Below, piece after piece: positions 10,643-56,023 of a stretch of 64,000 nt of DNA (positions are counted from its first letter, which is position 1; each line of letters opens with the position of its first letter). The stretch spans positions 496,001-560,000 of the forward strand of contig NZ_OCMS01000001.1 in assembly GCF_900215325.1 (NCBI RefSeq), read 5' to 3'. Source of the stretch: Fibrobacter sp. UWB16. Lineage in GTDB: Bacteria; Fibrobacterota; Fibrobacteria; Fibrobacterales; Fibrobacteraceae. Below the pieces are notes generated by a model. The model did not search any database and was not told where the DNA came from. It saw only the letters and a program-made list of their open reading frames with translations. The translations under genes were made by a program, and so were the position numbers.

Positions 10643-10688
10643 TTGGTCATTGGTCATTGGTCATTGGTCAATGGTCATTAGTCATTAG
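10643..10688. repeat. short AT-rich direct repeats (GGTCATT units)
   Basis: Four to six degenerate tandem copies of TTGGTCA/ATTAGTCA directly after the TPMT-family gene. The same words recur at 48716-48780, and a related TTACTAGTTACTAG form fills 11339-11458. Confidence 0.7.
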
Positions 10689-10717
10689 AATTTGAGTTCG
10701 TTGCAACTTTAGCTGTC

Positions 10718-10750
10718 ATGCCCGCCTCCGAGCGGGCATCTCTTTTTTCT
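10718..10750 (+). terminator. terminator-like hairpin, repeated elsewhere in the window
   Basis: ATGCCCGC / GCGGGCAT stem with a CTCCGA loop, then TCTTTTTTCT. A near-identical copy, including the loop, lies at 47578-47609, so this may be a dispersed repeat that doubles as a terminator. Confidence 0.75.
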
Positions 10751-11338: not shown

Positions 11339-11458
11339 GAAGTTAAGAGTTCTGAGTTACTAGTTACTAGAATTTCATAACAAGAATTTCTAGTAGCTGT
11401 AATCTATAAACTAATAACTTAATAATCCTAGTAACTATCAACTATTAACTAGTAACTA
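11339..11458. repeat. AT-rich low-complexity direct repeats between ychJ-like gene and argC
   Basis: The whole 120-bp gap consists of variants of AGTTACTAG, AACTAATAACT and GAATTTCTAGTAGC, giving many overlapping direct and inverted matches. No gene or clear promoter is visible other than general AT-richness next to the argC start. Confidence 0.65.
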
Positions 11459-12430: not shown

Positions 12431-12440
12431 TCCACGAACC

Positions 12441-12523
12441 GTCATCCTGAGCAACGCGATATATGAAACTTGGCAACTTGTTGCCTTAGTTGAATTAGGT
12501 TCGTAGGAGCAGGATCCAGTCAA
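12441..12523 (+). repeat. dispersed GTCATCCTGAGC...GGATCCAGT repeat, interrupted copy
   Basis: It begins GTCATCCTGAGCAACGCG and ends AGGATCCAGTCAAA, the two ends of the repeat found uninterrupted at 55989-56023. Between them is an extra stretch of about 45 bp containing GGCAACTTGTTGCC, a small palindrome. Confidence 0.65.
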
Positions 12524-15627: not shown

Positions 15628-15690
15628 AAAAGGAATCCGCAAGATTTGACTGGATTCCTCGTTACACTCGGAATGACGAGATGTTTGCGG
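15628..15690. repeat. dispersed repeat remnant (GGAATCC...GGATTCC, GGAATGACGAG)
   Basis: GGAATCC / GGATTCC inverted repeat followed by CGGAATGACGAG directly after the amidase stop. The words resemble the ends of the GTCATCCTGAGC...GGATCCAGT repeat family, but the copy is degenerate. There is no T-tract, so terminator function is doubtful. Confidence 0.45.
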
Positions 15691-16977: not shown

Positions 16978-17013
16978 GACTGGATCCTTCGCCTTCGCTC
17001 AGGATGACGTAAG
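16978..17013 (-). repeat. dispersed GTCATCCTGAGC...GGATCCAGT repeat
   Basis: On the minus strand it reads GTCATCCTGAGCGAAGG...AAGGATCCAGTCAA. Compare 33398-33432 and 55989-56023. It lies immediately after the stop of the 17015 gene. Confidence 0.75.
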
Positions 17014-17861: not shown

Positions 17862-17864
17862 GAA

Positions 17865-17897
17865 ATGGAGATTCCCGCTCGGTGGCGGGAATGACAA
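17865..17897 (+). repeat. dispersed GGAGATTCCCGC...GCGGGAATGACA repeat
   Basis: Inverted-repeat element GGAGATTCCCGCTCGGTGGCGGGAATGACA. A second copy is at 53687-53714, and an interrupted one at 47622-47706. Confidence 0.75.
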
Positions 17898-17919
17898 ATC
17901 CTTACGACGCTACTGACGC

Positions 17920-22173: not shown

Positions 22174-22337
22174 TTTAAATCCTCATATAACGGCAAGGAA
22201 ACATTCCCCACCTATTACATTAACACGCGTTTTTCAAGAAATTATTCCAATTTTTTTTTGATTTTTGCGTAAAATGATTTAAACACAGAAAAAAGGCGGT
22301 CTTCGCCAAATGATTTTAAACAAATTCTCAGCATCAA

Positions 22338-22428
22338 GCCGGGGCGTTACGGGGCCGGCGTATGAGGCCCCGTTCGAGGGGGTAGCGGAAGACCCGAGGG
22401 GCTAAAGCGAGGGGGATCCCTCCCCCAC
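22338..22428. repeat. GC-rich dispersed repeat (CGGGGCGTTACGGGG ... AGCGAGGGGGA)
   Basis: About 90 bp, much more GC-rich than its surroundings. Its reverse complement shares TCCCCCTCGCT, TCCGCTACCCCCTC and CGCCCC, in that order, with the insert inside the methyltransferase gene at 33526-33602. The region 22174-22575 otherwise holds no gene. Confidence 0.65.
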
Positions 22429-22472: not shown

Positions 22473-22560
22473 ATTTTTTCAAGCTACAGCTCTTGATTTA
22501 CAAGCCTTTAATTTCGCCATATTTTTCACTCGTCTTTCGTCTCTAGTCTCTCGTCTATAC

Positions 22561-24452: not shown

Positions 24453-26297
24453 TTACTTCACGGCGACGCGCTGCATAAAGTTGCCCTGCTTCACCATGTA
24501 GATGCCAGCATTCTTGAAGTTAGCCTTGAGCACTTCGTTCACGGTAGCGCCAGCATCGACCTTCACAGTACCGAGGAAACGGCCCTGCATGTCGAACACC
24601 TGGAAGTTGCCGCTCTTGAGTTCCATCTTCGGTGCAGCAATGAGACCAATCGTTTGGCTGCTAGAAGATTCAACCTTTGCTTCAGAAGAGCTAGACACAG
24701 GTTCATCCTTTGCCACGTAGACCTTTGCATGCGGGAAGTCTGCCGTACCAGAAACGCCACCGCCATTGCTGCCCGCTTCGCCGAGCACCTTGGCTTCGTA
24801 AAGCTTACCCATCGTCATGCCAAGTTCTTCCCACTTTTTCATGTGAGCGGAAATGTTGATGACGCCACAATCACGAGCTTGCTTACGGACGCTGAAATAC
24901 TGGTAGAATTCGACGTTGCCACTAGACTTGATTGCAGGACCTGTACGAGTGTTGCGATAGACATCGTATTCGGCACCGTCAATCGTGAATGTACCATACT
25001 TCTTGTTGCCAACCCAGTCACCCGGGCGGTACTGGCTCAACCAGTTATCGACCACATAGTATTCCACCAACTTGCTCTGTGTTCCCGGCACGCCTTCCAT
25101 CCAGCCATAGACTCCCACATAGGAGTAGTCAGCGCCATTAACATTCTGCTTCACGAGCTTGTATTCAGCAAGCATATCGCCATCAAGTTCCTTGTAGGTC
25201 TTGTCGCTATTGAAGGACAGGCCCGAACGGCAGAGATAGTCACCAGCGTTCTGGAAAGAGCAAGACATAGAGCCATCGGAATAGAACGTTGCCGAACCGG
25301 ACGTTGCACGGTCATACCAAAGTTCATAACCAATTCCGTTGATGGAGCCCACCTTGTTGCCGTTTTCGGTCTTCTTATCGCCAGTGTGCTGAGCATCCTT
25401 GCAGAATTCAGTGCTGACAACAGGACCAACGCCACTACCCTTCGAAGAGCTGGACTTTGGCGTTACTGTAGAAGAGCTGGACTTCACAGAAGAGGAAGAA
25501 GCCGGATCAGAGCCGTTTTTCACATAGACCTTGGCATGCGGGAAATCCATACGACCATTGCGGACTTCACCATTGACGTTACCCGCTTCACCGAGCACCT
25601 TGGCTTCGTAGAGCTTACCCATGGTCATGCCCATCTTTTCCCACTGTCTCATGTGTTCGGAAATGTTGATGGTACCGCAATCGCGAGGCGAGGTACGCAC
25701 GCTGAAATACTGATAGAACGTAACGTTGCCCGAGGATTTAATTGCAGGACCGGTACGAGTGTTGCGATAAACTGTATAGGTACCACCATCAACCGTAATG
25801 GTTCCCTTTCGTTCATTACCAATCCAGCTACCAGGCATATCATTGGCAAGAGTGTTATCAATCACATAGTATTCAACCAACTGGCTAGGCGTTCCAGAAA
25901 CGCCTTCCATCCAGCCGTAAACGCCAATGTAAGAGTACCCAACGTTCTGGGCCGGGCTCTTCACAAGCTTGAACTCGGCAATCATGTCGCCGCCAAGTTC
26001 CTTATAGGTTTTGTTACTGCCAAGGGAAAGACCAGCACGGCAGAGATAGTCCTTAGCGCCCGTGATGCTGCAATCCATGGAACCGTCGCTATAGAACGTA
26101 GCGCTACCGCCATGACCATTTTCGTCCCAAAGTTCATAACCGATATCACCGATTTTACCGACTTGGTTCGAAGAAATTTTCACGGATTGACCGGAATGCG
26201 ACGAGTTGCTGCAGAAATCCTGAGCAAAAGCAGTCGTCGCCATTCCCAAAGCCATTGCGAAAACAACGCTAGACTTGGTCACACTAAATGTTTTCAT
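24453..26297 (-). CDS. xynC: endo-1,4-beta-xylanase with two GH11 domains (XynC type)
   Basis: A 614-residue secreted xylanase. Signal peptide to about residue 25 ('TTAFAQD'); GH11 domain A about 26-265; Ser/Lys/Pro linker; GH11 domain B about 300-535; second Ser linker; C-terminal domain about 555-614 with 'FQVFDMQGRFLGTVKVD' and 'AGIYMVKQGN', resembling type-A sorting domains. Both catalytic domains keep the nucleophile segment ('LVEYYVID' and 'LVEYYVVD') and the acid/base segment ('AKVLGEAG'). The two domains are diverged copies of each other. Two tandem GH11 domains are the known architecture of Fibrobacter succinogenes XynC (608 residues as I recall). It cleaves xylan outside the cell. 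GAGGAG precedes the start. The upstream region holds a repeat array. Confidence 0.92.
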   Translation of the reverse strand: MKTFSVTKSSVVFAMALGMATTAFAQDFCSNSSHSGQSVKISSNQVGKIGDIGYELWDENGHGGSATFYSDGSMDCSITGAKDYLCRAGLSLGSNKTYKELGGDMIAEFKLVKSPAQNVGYSYIGVYGWMEGVSGTPSQLVEYYVIDNTLANDMPGSWIGNERKGTITVDGGTYTVYRNTRTGPAIKSSGNVTFYQYFSVRTSPRDCGTINISEHMRQWEKMGMTMGKLYEAKVLGEAGNVNGEVRNGRMDFPHAKVYVKNGSDPASSSSVKSSSSTVTPKSSSSKGSGVGPVVSTEFCKDAQHTGDKKTENGNKVGSINGIGYELWYDRATSGSATFYSDGSMSCSFQNAGDYLCRSGLSFNSDKTYKELDGDMLAEYKLVKQNVNGADYSYVGVYGWMEGVPGTQSKLVEYYVVDNWLSQYRPGDWVGNKKYGTFTIDGAEYDVYRNTRTGPAIKSSGNVEFYQYFSVRKQARDCGVINISAHMKKWEELGMTMGKLYEAKVLGEAGSNGGGVSGTADFPHAKVYVAKDEPVSSSSEAKVESSSSQTIGLIAAPKMELKSGNFQVFDMQGRFLGTVKVDAGATVNEVLKANFKNAGIYMVKQGNFMQRVAVK

Positions 26298-26415
26298 ATG
26301 ATACTCCTCACATTTTAGTTATGCTGAACATAATATATGAGTGACAGATGAAAAAAGACCGACATTAAACAAATGTTTGTTGTTGAAAAAAACAACGACA
26401 ATAAGTTTACATTTG

Positions 26416-33070: not shown

Positions 33071-34573
33071 ATGAGTGACGCTCTCGAAAAACGCATCAAG
33101 AAACACATCATCGGTAAACCGCACCGCTTTTTAGCCGTTTCTCCGCTTGGCTTTGAACAAACACTTTCGAGAGAACTTGATTGCATTCTTGGCGATAACG
33201 CAACAGAACAGCCGCACTCCACTGGGGACGGCAAAGTCGAATTTACCACAAAACTCACTGAAGCGTGGAAAGTTGTCGCCGTAAGCCGCATCGCAAACCG
33301 CGTGCTCATGGAAGTCGCCAGTTTCAGAGCCGAAAACTTCCGCGAACTCGAAAAGAAAGCAAGCGAAATCCCGTGGGAACTTTATTTAGACCGTAACGTC
33401 ATCCTGAGCAAAGCGAAGGATCCAGTAAAATCAGGTAACGCATTAAACATCCACGTTACTTGCAAGCATTCCCGCCTGTACCACAGCGACGCCATCGCCG
33501 AACGTTTGTATAAAATAATAGAAGAAGGGGTAAGTGTCCCCCTCGCTCCTGCCGACACGGCATCCGCTACCCCCTCTGCGGGGACACCCCGCAACGCCCC
33601 GTCGCAAAACGAGAATCGCAGCATTCAACAAAATCTCTACGTCAACTTCCTAGACGACCGCTGCACCATCTGGCTAGACCTCGCCGGCGAAGAGCTCTAC
33701 AAGCGCGGCTTTGAGCGATTCGTGAACGACGCTCCGCTCAAAGAAACCATCGCATCCGCGATGATTTTCGAAGCAATAGAGATCCTTCGACTTCGCGCTT
33801 CGCGCTCCGCTCAGGATGACACAAGCCATCCGCGAAGCATCACCCTTATCGACCTCATGTCAGGCAGTGGCACGTTCAGCCTCGAAGCCGCTTGCATTAC
33901 AAATAAAATCATTCCCGGCACTTGTCGCGATTTTGCACTTAAACACCAGCCCGCTTTCAAGGAAGCCACGTGGAATTTTATTACGCGAAGCGCCTCCCAA
34001 AGCGACGCAAAAAGCAACACATCTACGTTCGTCACCCTGAACGAAGTGAAGGGCCCAGTAAAGCCTCGTAATGCGACAAAGCATCCCATCATCGCGAAAA
34101 TCATCACGAGCGACATTTCCGAACGCGCGGTAAGCATCATCAAGCACAACATCGAATGTAGCCCGCTCGCACAAATCGCGCCAAACAAAACCACGCCCAC
34201 AATTTCTCCGCAACTCCGCGACTTTTTCAGCTATACCGCCAAAGAAATTGCAGACGCCTGCGGCGACACCTCGCCCATTCTCGTGCTGAACCCGCCCTAC
34301 GGCAAGCGCCTCGATTTTGACGCCCCCAAACTTTACACGCAAATAGGCAAAAAGCTAACAGAACTTGCTCGCAACCTGCACCATTTCGGCAAATCGCTCA
34401 CAGTCGCCATCCTCGCCCCAAAAGACGACACCCGCGATGGCACCAAGTACACCTGCACCGCAAACCTTTTGCGCGAATGCCCCGCCCTTTCGAAAGAGCT
34501 TACCCCAACCGCCAAAGTCATCCAAACAAGCCACGGCGGCTTTAGCCTCAACGCCTTCTTTGCTACAATCTAG
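33071..34573 (+). CDS. THUMP-domain class I SAM-dependent RNA methyltransferase (RlmL/UPF0020 type) carrying in-frame repeats
   Basis: About 500 residues. The N-terminal 'FLAVSPLGFEQTLSRELDCI' and following THUMP region bind RNA; the catalytic domain has 'LIDLMSGSGTFSLEAA' (SAM motif I) and 'VLNPPYGKRL', the N-P-P-Y signature of N-methyltransferases such as the RlmL N2-guanine enzymes. The family usually has about 380 residues in this short form, so the gene is longer than expected. The excess comes from four in-frame segments that match intergenic repeats (33398-33432, 33526-33602, 33781-33820, 34031-34064), encoding 'VILSKAKDPVK', a Pro/Ala/Ser-rich stretch, 'ILRLRASRSAQDD' and 'VTLNEVKGPVK'. 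All core motifs remain intact, so activity is plausible. ATG 33071 is preferred over an upstream TTG. Confidence 0.85.
   Translation: MSDALEKRIKKHIIGKPHRFLAVSPLGFEQTLSRELDCILGDNATEQPHSTGDGKVEFTTKLTEAWKVVAVSRIANRVLMEVASFRAENFRELEKKASEIPWELYLDRNVILSKAKDPVKSGNALNIHVTCKHSRLYHSDAIAERLYKIIEEGVSVPLAPADTASATPSAGTPRNAPSQNENRSIQQNLYVNFLDDRCTIWLDLAGEELYKRGFERFVNDAPLKETIASAMIFEAIEILRLRASRSAQDDTSHPRSITLIDLMSGSGTFSLEAACITNKIIPGTCRDFALKHQPAFKEATWNFITRSASQSDAKSNTSTFVTLNEVKGPVKPRNATKHPIIAKIITSDISERAVSIIKHNIECSPLAQIAPNKTTPTISPQLRDFFSYTAKEIADACGDTSPILVLNPPYGKRLDFDAPKLYTQIGKKLTELARNLHHFGKSLTVAILAPKDDTRDGTKYTCTANLLRECPALSKELTPTAKVIQTSHGGFSLNAFFATI
33398..33432 (+). repeat. dispersed GTCATCCTGAGC...GGATCCAGT repeat inside a coding sequence (insert A)
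   Basis: GTCATCCTGAGCAAAGCGAA then GGATCCAGTAAAATC. The same element occurs between genes at 55989-56023 and 16978-17013. Here it is read in frame as 'VILSKAKDPVKS'. Confidence 0.85.
33526..33602. repeat. GC-rich dispersed repeat inside a coding sequence (insert B)
   Basis: Shares TCCCCCTCGCT, TCCGCTACCCCCTC and CGCCCCG, in order, with the reverse complement of the intergenic element at 22338-22428. Read in frame as a Pro/Ala/Thr/Ser-rich segment of about 26 residues. Confidence 0.7.
33781..33820 (-). repeat. dispersed GTCATCCTGAGC...GGATC repeat inside a coding sequence, reversed (insert C)
   Basis: On the minus strand GTCATCCTGAGCGGAGCGCG ... GAAGGATC, the same family as insert A but in opposite orientation. 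In frame it encodes 'ILRLRASRSAQDD'. Confidence 0.8.
34031..34064 (+). repeat. dispersed GTCACCCTGAAC...GGGCCCAGT repeat inside a coding sequence (insert D)
   Basis: GTCACCCTGAACGAAGTGAA then GGGCCCAGTAAAG. Same orientation and same reading frame as insert A, encoding 'VTLNEVKGPVK'. Confidence 0.8.
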
Positions 34574-34679: not shown

Positions 34680-36536
34680 ATGCCGAAACTTCGTTCGCTC
34701 AAGACTATGGAAGGCCGTGAAATGGCCGGTGCACGTGCCCTTTGGCACGCAACAGGAACCAAGGTAGAAGACTTTGGTAAGCCCGTCATTTGCGTGGTGA
34801 ACAGCTACACCCAGTTTGTACCGGGTCATGTCCACCTCAAGGATGTCGGCCAGGTTGTCGCACGCGCGATCGAAGCTGCCGGCGGTGTCGCCAAGGAAAT
34901 GAACACCATCGCCGTGGACGACGGTATCGCCATGGGCCACGACGGCATGCTCTACAGCTTGCCCTCCCGCGACCTCATTGCAGACGCTACCGAATACATG
35001 GCTAACGCCCACCGCGCAGACGCCCTCGTTTGCATTTCTAACTGCGACAAGGTGACTCCGGGTATGCTCATGGCTGCAATGCGCCTCAACATTCCGGCAA
35101 TCTTCGTTTCCGGTGGTCCAATGGAAGCTGGTCACGTCACGACGAAGGACGGCAAGGACCGCGCTCTCGACTTGATCGACGCCATGATCGATTCTGCAGA
35201 CAACACCATCAGCGATGAAGAAGTTGCCGACATCGAAGCCAACGCTTGCCCGACTTGCGGTTCCTGCTCCGGCATGTTCACCGCAAACTCCATGAACTCC
35301 CTTACCGAAGCCCTCGGCCTTAGCCTCCCGGGCAACGGCACCATCGTTGCAACGCACGCCGAACGCAAGAAGCTCTTCGAAGCCGCCGGTAAGCGCATCG
35401 TGGAACTCTGCCACCAGTATTACGATTTGAACGACGAAAGCATCCTCCCGCGCAGCATCGCCACGAAGGACGCCTTCGAAAACGCCATGCGCCTCGATAT
35501 CGCCATGGGTGGTTCTTCTAACACCGTTCTCCACTTGCTCGCCGTCGCTCAGGAAGCTGGCGTGGACTTCACCATGAAGGACATCGACCGTCTCTCCCGC
35601 AACACGCCGTGCATCTGCAAGGTCGCTCCGACCGTCCACAACATCCACGTCGAAAACGTGAACCGTGCAGGCGGCATCATGGGCATCATCGGTGAACTCG
35701 ACCGCATGGGCCTCATCCACAAGAGCGCAAAGACCGTTCACGCCGCTACGATGGGCGACGCTCTCGAAGCAAACGACCTCAAGCGTAATCCGACTGCCGA
35801 AGCCAAGCAGCGCTATCTCGCAGGTCCGGGCCGCAAGTACAACATCGAAGCCTTCTCTCAGAACTTCATGTACCCGGATCACGACCTCGACCGCGCAAAC
35901 GGCGCTATCCGCGATGGCGAACACGCTTACACCAAGGACGGCGGCCTCGCTGTTCTTTACGGTAACCTCGCTATCGACGGCTGCATCGTGAAGACCGCAG
36001 GCGTTGACGAATCCATCTGGAAGTTCACTGGCCCGGCAATCGTGTTCGAAAGCCAGGAAGAAGCTGTGAACGGCATTCTCGGCAACAAGGTGAAGGCAGG
36101 CGACGTCGTCGTCATCCGTTACGAAGGCCCGAAGGGTGGTCCTGGCATGCAGGAAATGCTCTACCCGACCTCTTACCTCAAGAGCCGTCACCTCGGCAAG
36201 TCTTGCGCCCTCCTCACCGACGGTCGCTTCTCCGGTGGTACAAGCGGTCTCTCCATTGGCCACGCCTCTCCGGAAGCAGCCAACAAGGGTAACATCGGCC
36301 TCGTGCACACGGGTGACGTCATCGAAATCGATATCCCGAACCGCACCATCAACGTGGAACTCACCGACGAAGAACTCGCCGCACGCCGTCAGGAAATGGA
36401 ATCCCGTGGCGCCAAGGCATGGAAGCCGGAAAACCGCGACCGCGTCGTGTCCAAGGCACTCCAGGCATACGCTGCTATGGCCTCCTCTGCAGACAAGGGT
36501 GCCGTGCGCGACCTGTCTCTGATTGGCATTAAGTAA
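34680..36536 (+). CDS. ilvD: dihydroxy-acid dehydratase
   Basis: A 618-residue iron-sulfur dehydratase that converts 2,3-dihydroxy-3-methyl acids to 2-oxo acids in valine, isoleucine and pantothenate synthesis. Motifs: '[20 protein letters not shown]', '[18 protein letters not shown]', '[20 protein letters not shown]', and the C-terminal '[20 protein letters not shown]'. The cysteines are as in the standard enzyme and length is normal. AAAAAGGA lies six bases before ATG 34680; a palindromic operator candidate overlaps a -10 box upstream. No other ilv genes are adjacent. Its last 37 codons are repeated twice downstream in 230-bp units (36651 and 36881), each copy with only silent changes. Confidence 0.96.
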
Positions 36537-36650
36537 GCCATGCGTTAATGTTCATTCTGTGAGCTAGAGTCGCCGATATTAATCGGCGATGGAAGCGAGA
36601 GGCGGCGAGGTATCGCAATGTATATTGCAGTCGAGCCGCCGGTCGTCACA
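36421..36650 (+). repeat. ilvD-tail tandem unit 1 (contains the true ilvD 3' end)
   Basis: Unit of exactly 230 bp: the last 37 codons of ilvD and its stop, then about 114 bp of non-coding spacer. The spacer holds TCGCCGAT-ATTA-ATCGGCGA (perfect 8-bp hairpin), then GGCGGC...GCAAT-GTAT-ATTGC...GCCGCC (second hairpin), enclosed by CTGTGA...TCACAG, which could close a three-way junction. Confidence 0.9.
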
Positions 36651-36880
36651 GGAAGCCGGAAAATCGCGACCGTGTTGTTTCCAAGGCTCTGCAGGCATAC
36701 GCAGCAATGGCCTCCAGCGCAGACAAGGGTGCCGTGCGCGACCTGTCTCTGATTGGCATTAAGTAAGCCATGCGTTAATGTTCTTTCAGTGAGCTGGAGT
36801 CGCCGATATTAATCGGCGATGGAAGCGAGAGGCGGCGAGGTATCGCAATGTATATTGCAGTCGAGCCGCCGGTCGTCACA
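36651..36880 (+). repeat. ilvD-tail tandem unit 2
   Basis: 230 bp. The coding part differs from unit 1 in nine codons, all silent (for example TCT to AGC, GTC to GTT). The spacer differs from unit 1 at only three positions. It has no start codon or ribosome site for the ilvD fragment, so it is not expressed as a protein on its own. Confidence 0.9.
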
Positions 36881-37061
36881 GGAAGCCGGAAAACCGCGAC
36901 CGCGTTGTGTCCAAGGCTCTCCAGGCATACGCTGCTATGGCATCAAGTGCAGATAAAGGTGCTGTCAGAGACCTGTCTCTGATTGGCATTAAGTAAGCCA
37001 TGCGTTAATGTTCATTCTGTGAGCTGGAGTCGCCGATATTAATCGGCGATGGAAGCGAGAG
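36881..37061 (+). repeat. ilvD-tail tandem unit 3 (truncated spacer)
   Basis: The coding part differs from unit 1 in ten codons and from unit 2 in fourteen, all silent (for example CGC to AGA, GCC to GCA). The spacer matches through the first hairpin and GGAAGCGAGAG, then diverges; the second hairpin is missing. The array is followed by a terminator at 37085. Confidence 0.9.
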
Positions 37062-37084
37062 ATTCGCGCACTCATCAATCTTTG

Positions 37085-37120
37085 AAATTCCCGCCCCGAG
37101 AAAACGAGGCGGGAATTTTT
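37085..37120. terminator. terminator after the ilvD array, also serving the convergent gene
   Basis: AAATTCCCGCC / GGCGGGAATTT, an 11-bp stem with a 12-nt loop, then TTG. The stop of the minus-strand gene is 11 bp away. Confidence 0.8.
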
Positions 37121-47524: not shown

Positions 47525-47577
47525 GCGATCAGAGAAGGTCTCCACGACCTTGCCAAGTTCACTTACAAGACCTTGTC

Positions 47578-47609
47578 ATGCCCGCCTCCGAGCGGGCATA
47601 TCCTTTTTA
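47578..47609 (+). terminator. terminator-like hairpin, second copy of the 10718 element
   Basis: ATGCCCGC-CTCCGA-GCGGGCAT then ATCCTTTTTAT. The preceding TTGTCATGCCCGCC and the loop are the same as at 10718. Confidence 0.8.
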
Positions 47610-48715: not shown

Positions 48716-48780
48716 TATAGTTACTAGTTAGTAGTCATTGGTCATTAGAAAATCTTGACATAAAATTTTCTAGAAACTCG
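48716..48780. repeat. AT-rich direct repeats (TTACTAGTTAGTAG, GTCATTGGTCATTAG)
   Basis: The same words as at 10643-10688 and 11339-11458, between the convergent Sua5 and dipeptidase genes. Confidence 0.6.
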
Positions 48781-53566: not shown

Positions 53567-53686
53567 CCAAGGAGAATCCACCCTTCCATCTCCTACGTTT
53601 TATATTATACATTATTTTGGTCAAATAGATTATTATTAAAAAAATATTTTCTAATCAAAAATTATATATTCAAAAAAAAACGTGTA

Positions 53687-53714
53687 GGGAGATTCCCGCC
53701 TTAGCGGGAATGAC
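53687..53714 (+). repeat. dispersed GGAGATTCCCGCC...GCGGGAATGACA repeat
   Basis: An inverted repeat whose end is 11 bp before the maltokinase start codon, so the element lies in the promoter/leader region of that gene. Confidence 0.7.
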
Positions 53715-53725
53715 AAGTTTATATT

Positions 53726-55988: not shown

Positions 55989-56023
55989 GTCATCCTGAAC
56001 GAAAGTGAAGGATCCAGTGAAAC
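55989..56023 (+). repeat. dispersed GTCATCCTGAAC...GGATCCAGT repeat
   Basis: GTCATCCTGAACGAAAGTGA then AGGATCCAGTGAAAC, the uninterrupted form of the element. It lies between cysE and nth, ending 15 bp before the nth start. Confidence 0.8.

Follow-up and report, generated by a model that had tools for sequence, protein, structure and literature searches.

In Fibrobacter, a rumen-type bacterium, four segments of the gene for a functional RlmL-type rRNA methyltransferase very probably derive from dispersed intergenic repeats, which would have entered loops of the enzyme without loss of frame after spreading and being sorted by selection as proposed below. The stretch that we analyzed, hereafter the window, covers 64,000 nucleotides (C1:496001-560000) of a 3.56 Mb genome in nine contigs (G000), and the host gene occupies positions 33071-34573 of its plus strand as a single open frame of 500 amino acids. 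The product of this gene, a class I methyltransferase, joins a ferredoxin-like RlmL N-terminal domain (Pfam RlmL_1st, 29.3 bits) to a UPF0020 methyltransferase domain (50 bits), both above the cut-off in a family scan, and retains the DLMSGSGTF and NPPY motifs, in agreement with an earlier note that the inserts keep the frame and leave the catalytic motifs intact. Since its match to the NCBIfam RlmKL model (3.7e-37) fell under the equivalog cut-off, the name that its sequence would support goes no further than 'RlmL-type'. The closest solved structures were the RlmL-like methylases 3k0b, 3ldu and 3ldg, with E. coli RlmL (3v8v) matching more weakly. An AlphaFold model built from 16 sequences was poor (mean pLDDT 58), and 'loop' here refers to alignment gaps and helix/strand boundaries, not to a structure model.

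Three of the four inserts are forms of one short repeat (R1, or CGTC-REP). At site 1 (33397-33426, plus strand) the repeat (CGTCATCCTGAGC-AAA-GCGAAGGATCCAGT, translated NVILSKAKDPVK) matched the consensus exactly, with 0 matches expected in shuffles, and scored 52.3 bits with a covariance model. Site 4 (34030-34059, plus strand) holds a variant (CGTCACCCTGAAC-GAA-GTGAAGGGCCCAGT, translated VTLNEVKGPVK) that scored 44.8 bits with the same model and has an ACCCT/AGGG(C) stem that has lost its terminal pair. At site 3 (33782-33820, minus strand, translated EILRLRASRSAQDD) the repeat is reversed, and a pair-aware scan, together with similarity to copies elsewhere in Fibrobacter, identified it as a longer-loop form of the same hairpin. 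Consensus match, covariance scores and pair-aware scan agree in assigning these three inserts to one dispersed family, as had been proposed. Site 2 (33527-33600, plus strand, translated GVSVPLAPADTASATPSAGTPRNAP) is filled by a GC-rich dispersed element that matches an intergenic copy at 22337-22420 on the minus strand. The claim that the insert at 33526-33602 corresponds to an element at 22338 was borne out, as a strict two-block pattern of the element occurs at exactly two places in the genome, RlmL site 2 and window position 22378. The four inserts are predicted to be translated as protein segments.

An alignment of 30 distinct genomic copies gave the short repeat the structure GTC-ATCCT-GA-GC-NNN-GC-GA-AGGAT-CCAGT, in which stem segments of 5 bp and 2 bp are separated by a tandem G-A step and closed by a three-base loop. 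This imperfect hairpin is flanked by an unpaired CGTC tag on one side and a CCAGT tail on the other. Compensatory change was seen at 7 of 7 Watson-Crick stem pairs and one-sided variation at none, with 98.6% of cells paired; none of 500 shuffles reached this covariation, and shifting the partner by 1-3 columns destroyed the signal. At the stem start, AU was present in 27 of the 30 copies and UA in 26, the remainder being mostly compensated, and of the tail bases C25, A27 and G28 never varied and C26 hardly did. The stem is preceded by CGTC or TGTC in all three RlmL copies and in most of the genomic copies shown. The bases of the internal G-A step are nearly fixed as well (three invariant, one changed once), even though they do not form Watson-Crick pairs. 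We infer that something recognizes the hairpin, as repair toward a perfect palindrome would have erased this step, and the missing one-sided G-U intermediates would be in keeping with a DNA rather than an RNA hairpin. Four of the six frames of the repeat are free of stops, and it can therefore be translated through. An Rfam search returned no match.

Searching G000 with the short-repeat pattern, allowing up to two mismatches, gave 70 copies, as compared with 0 for the reversed pattern, while the covariance model found at least 148, a lower bound taken from the best 150 candidates scored genome-wide. The same model detected the repeat in 66 of 67 genomes of the genus and in none of 44 genomes sampled outside it. 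Within the window, the pair-aware hairpin scan gave six matches, five of them of the CGTC-REP family, vs 2 in total over 20 resampled windows. The intergenic copies that had been placed at 16978 and 55989 were recovered by the covariance model at 16979-17008 (minus strand) and 55989-56018 (plus strand), and a further one, absent from the earlier list, was found at 15649-15677 (minus strand) by the covariance model, the hairpin scan and the window scan. A fourth copy, at 12441, had been described as an interrupted member of the family; it is indeed an intergenic member, but in place of a chance interruption it holds a nested hairpin module with eight matches in the genome, so that the copy is a composite element in which CGTC-REP arms surround the module (12440-12520, plus strand). 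The nested module of this composite (12441-12520) ends in CCTTAGTTGAATTAGGTTCG and is also found within two RlmL loops of the congener G009. Elsewhere in the genome, about ten or more copies of the short repeat, mostly outside long open reading frames, form a dense cluster within ~15 kb (G000:C1:270100-286000).

Other repeats were also observed in the window. Intergenic heptamer arrays of the GGTCATT, CTAGTAA and GTCTCTC types lie at 10646-10686, 11341-11372, 22525-22558 and 48718-48753, and are related to arrays that fill RlmL loops of other species. Tagged hairpins of a second family (TGTCATGCCCGCC...GGGCAT and its relatives) are intergenic at 10710-10749, 47573-47609, 17862-17900 and 53686-53717. 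At 36421-37110, three tandem 230-nt units, the second and third 94% and 78% like the first, begin within the 3' end of ilvD. The additional copies encode the same IlvD C-terminal peptide with synonymous differences, as if recurrent recombination or integration events had appended the ends of divergent ilvD alleles. Finally, the gene at 24453-26318 contains two internal segment copies 810 nt apart that are 72-81% alike, and its identity is only 51% in G004 vs 98% in G001 and G050.

An unbiased comparison of the window with ~0.6 Mb of genus DNA placed short multi-locus repeats almost only between genes: RlmL alone among the 53 open reading frames of the window contains them, and two other matches look like domain homology. 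Genome-wide, ~16 of the 70 best short-repeat copies lie in frame, spread over 13 genes, where genes were called by open-frame length and family scans, a codon-context model trained on the window being too weak. By comparison, 70% of random positions in the same stretches fell within comparably long open frames; the repeat is thus much rarer in genes than random placement would give, though not excluded from them. Family scans identified the carriers as HrpA, GluQRS, TolC, FeoB, UvrB, MnmE, SecA, topoisomerase III (TopB), CysG, a GT4 glycosyltransferase and a NUDIX hydrolase, in addition to RlmL and one protein that matched no family. The commonest frame reads HPE(R/Q)SEGSS, a hydrophilic peptide. 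TolC carries three copies in its tail and UvrB carries two. The TolC-type copies form an in-frame tandem array with 48-nt spacing in the C-terminal tail (G000:C1:1121785-1121909), and runs with this spacing were also observed in G038 (four copies, C11:55454-55626), G019 and G044 (two each).

Across the genus the UvrB linker holds many different repeat-derived segments, and 24 of 30 linker segments had matches outside the gene, vs 2 of 30 segments of the UvrB core. This makes the linker a second repeat sink. A view of RlmL as a unique sink was accordingly dropped, and since the UvrB linker behaves like it, RlmL is better seen as an extreme example of something that certain loops and linkers in Fibrobacter have in common. 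The earlier note's more general proposal, that RlmL acts as a sink for repeats, held up: the segments are missing from homologues outside the genus, the core is under purifying selection (see below), and the repeat also lies in frame in 12 other genes.

Across 63 Fibrobacter species, the four RlmL loops contain about a dozen unrelated repeat families. These include forms of the CGTC-REP (VILSKAKDPV, HPERS, VTLSETKGPV, ILRLRA..SAQDD), other tagged hairpins (VIPAQAGI, VIASEAKQS, SHSGVGRNQ), heptamer arrays (LTTNHQPLTT, RETKDERR, LPTSY, SELVTSN), the GC-rich element and a ~100-nt element. Segments from the four loops matched DNA outside RlmL in 24/40, 29/63, 35/63 and 31/60 cases, vs 0/63, 8/63, 1/63 and 1/63 for core segments, where the 8 appear to represent a single conserved coding motif. 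At least one loop could be assigned to a repeat in 59 of 63 genomes, and when repeat classes, called roughly by regular expressions (text patterns), were placed on a core-DNA tree, they changed 25, 19, 24 and 25 times at sites 1-4. Out-of-genus RlmL homologues contained no repeat-derived segments. Turnover differs between inserts. The short-repeat inserts differ among close relatives, while the GC-rich insert at site 2 is common, in some form, to ~35 of the 63 congeners, and relatives of the element are present in stretches of other Fibrobacter genomes; this insert is old, carried in variants across many congeners, which rules out the notion that all four inserts are recent.

Site 3 illustrates how different the contents can be, with the reversed REP in G000, G046 and G014, a CTACTTC array in G004 and a CCACTAA array in G001 and G050. 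Such wholly different contents in close relatives, as well as weak support on some branches of the core tree, would also fit homologous recombination that swaps RlmL alleles among strains, insertions being rare and ancient and most turnover being allele exchange. We consider this doubtful as the main account, though it is the most plausible of the alternatives: the repeat families are many, each present at several sites and in many lineages, the flanking genes show no comparable excess of divergence, and a first source of many different insertions would still be needed. Allele exchange between strains may nonetheless explain part of the loop turnover, and the heptamer arrays in some loops may derive from slippage rather than transposition. 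No target-site duplication or empty site was cleanly resolved in the RlmL loop comparisons, because loops are often swapped whole, and no movement was observed.

RlmL evolves faster than its neighbors. Among close relatives it shows 81-90% identity and many indels of at least 6 amino acids, whereas most flanking genes show 94-99% identity and hardly any such indels. This acceleration could be taken to mean that RlmL is a decaying pseudogene that gathers repeats, a reading that we regard as extremely improbable. The frame is open in nearly all 66 congeners with a match (two carry one stop), the motifs are intact, and against five close relatives the core gave a dN/dS of 0.12-0.22 at a dS of 0.20-0.45, on which the pseudogene reading was rejected. 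In the loops, by contrast, dN was about equal to dS (dN/dS near 1, same five relatives), indicating that the core is constrained while the loops are free.

The loop values also bear on whether the inserts are themselves functional, diversifying RlmL and UvrB (for example in RNA/DNA contacts or partner binding) and being selected for it. The recurrence of inserts at fixed sites and the frequency of nucleic-acid enzymes among the carriers (UvrB, TopB, HrpA, MnmE, GluQRS, RlmL) are in line with such a role. Nevertheless, a dN/dS near 1 argues against selection on the loops, and their contents are unrelated between species, with some species having short loops and the inserts varying in frame and orientation, leaving this explanation quite improbable, if less so than decay.

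The most likely explanation is repeat insertion, with selection acting as a filter that favors frames free of stops and permissive loops. The repeats would spread as single-stranded DNA hairpins, moved by a trans-acting enzyme or by template switching during replication or repair, a route suggested by the lack of a Y1/RAYT transposase in G000. Insertions would land broadly across the genome, and selection would then remove any that disrupt a reading frame or a folded core. The survivors would be long-lived intergenic copies together with copies in a small number of permissive loops and linkers, with RlmL sites 1-4 and the UvrB linker as the clearest examples.

Alternatively, the short repeat would itself be a non-autonomous transposon, mobilized by a RAYT or an IS200/IS605-type Y1 transposase that has since been lost from G000 or acts in trans. 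The REP-like hairpin with its unpaired tag resembles such elements, and PF01797 (Y1/RAYT) genes, with transposases of the IS200 type, are found in 24 of 73 congeners. However, G000 itself has no PF01797 gene though many of its copies are identical; of five Y1 proteins tested, four matched IS200 above its cut-off but scored below the one for RAYT, and the fifth had no match. Moreover, no full copy of the short repeat was found near Y1 genes at eight Y1 loci of relatives, and published CGTC REPs likewise lack a dedicated transposase. We therefore consider this origin unlikely, and retain selection-filtered insertion of hairpins as the preferred account.

The Fibrobacter repeat has close counterparts. 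CGTC-tagged REPs carry an unpaired CGTC/TGTC tag, AT first in the stem and a CCA tail; they are mainly intergenic with some intragenic copies, lack a dedicated transposase, and take in the Rickettsia elements RPE-4 and RPE-6 as well as Neisseria dRS3 (= CGTC-1) (Di Nocera, De Gregorio and Rocco 2013, PMC3733652). The Fibrobacter repeat shares with them the tag, stem start, tail, intragenic copies and absence of a transposase flanked by the repeat. It differs in its nearly fixed tandem G-A step and three-base loop: its stem has nine stacked positions (seven Watson-Crick pairs plus the G-A step), whereas the published REPs, by their text description, have an 8-9 bp stem and a 4-5 base loop (PMC3733652). 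Different REPs at about the same recB site in two Xanthomonas, and nucleic-acid enzymes as frequent carriers of other REPs, have been noted (PMC3733652), yet that survey describes no recurrent turnover, with several repeat families, at fixed loops of a single orthologous gene throughout a genus, and makes no mention of Fibrobacter.

A parallel with Rickettsia palindromic elements had been suggested, and it is closer than claimed, since the repeat agrees in its tag, its AT-first stem and its CCA tail with the group that includes RPE-4 and RPE-6; the link runs through this published membership. Like RPEs, the Fibrobacter repeats are hairpins in frame in conserved housekeeping genes, where they can be translated through, and are absent from homologues elsewhere, and the two REPs in R. 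conorii uvrB (PMC3733652) parallel the two copies in Fibrobacter UvrB. In contrast, RPE-1 is longer, Rickettsia is an obligate intracellular host as opposed to a gut-type bacterium of ~3.5 Mb, and the Fibrobacter loops take about a dozen unrelated families at the same positions. Neisseria dRS3 are likewise tagged short hairpins, but lie mostly in large clusters (PMC3733652) and have a different stem sequence. GTAG REPs with RAYT resemble the Fibrobacter repeat in their short hairpin, unpaired tag and intragenic copies, and differ in that the Fibrobacter tag is CGTC/TGTC rather than GTAG and G000 has no RAYT. Cyanobacterial STRRs are short tandem heptamer repeats dispersed between genes; they resemble the CCACTAA, CTAGTAA and ACGAGAG arrays of Fibrobacter, which also fill loops of coding genes.

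The main text of the Fibrobacter genome paper does not describe these repeats, nor did the other literature searched, which left most subscription journals outside, in line with the earlier note, which knew of no description in Fibrobacter; searching by repeat sequence gave only apparently unrelated papers. Thus, as far as we found, the kind of repeat is known, while the recurrent, genus-wide refilling of the same loops by multiple families appears undescribed.

These findings extend CGTC REPs to a genus missing from the 2013 survey, and allow database peptides such as HPERSEGSS or VILSEAKDPV to be recognized as repeat-derived and spurious. The strong covariation, which supports a DNA hairpin whose G-A step is nearly fixed, provides a lead to the mobilizing mechanism. 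More broadly, unrelated repeats have filled the same four loops again and again across more than 60 species, with the core under selection, so that insertion, choice of frame and tolerance become measurable. This offers a comparative system, with events that can be counted, for the long-standing question of how conserved proteins acquire new peptide segments. We can also envisage, as a long shot, that Fibrobacter maintains an active, transposase-independent supply of hairpins and heptamers that keeps rewriting defined loops in housekeeping enzymes, in which the G-A hairpin with its three-base loop could be the recognition unit of a mobilizing enzyme. If true, the genus would represent a standing natural experiment in the conversion of non-coding DNA into protein sequence.
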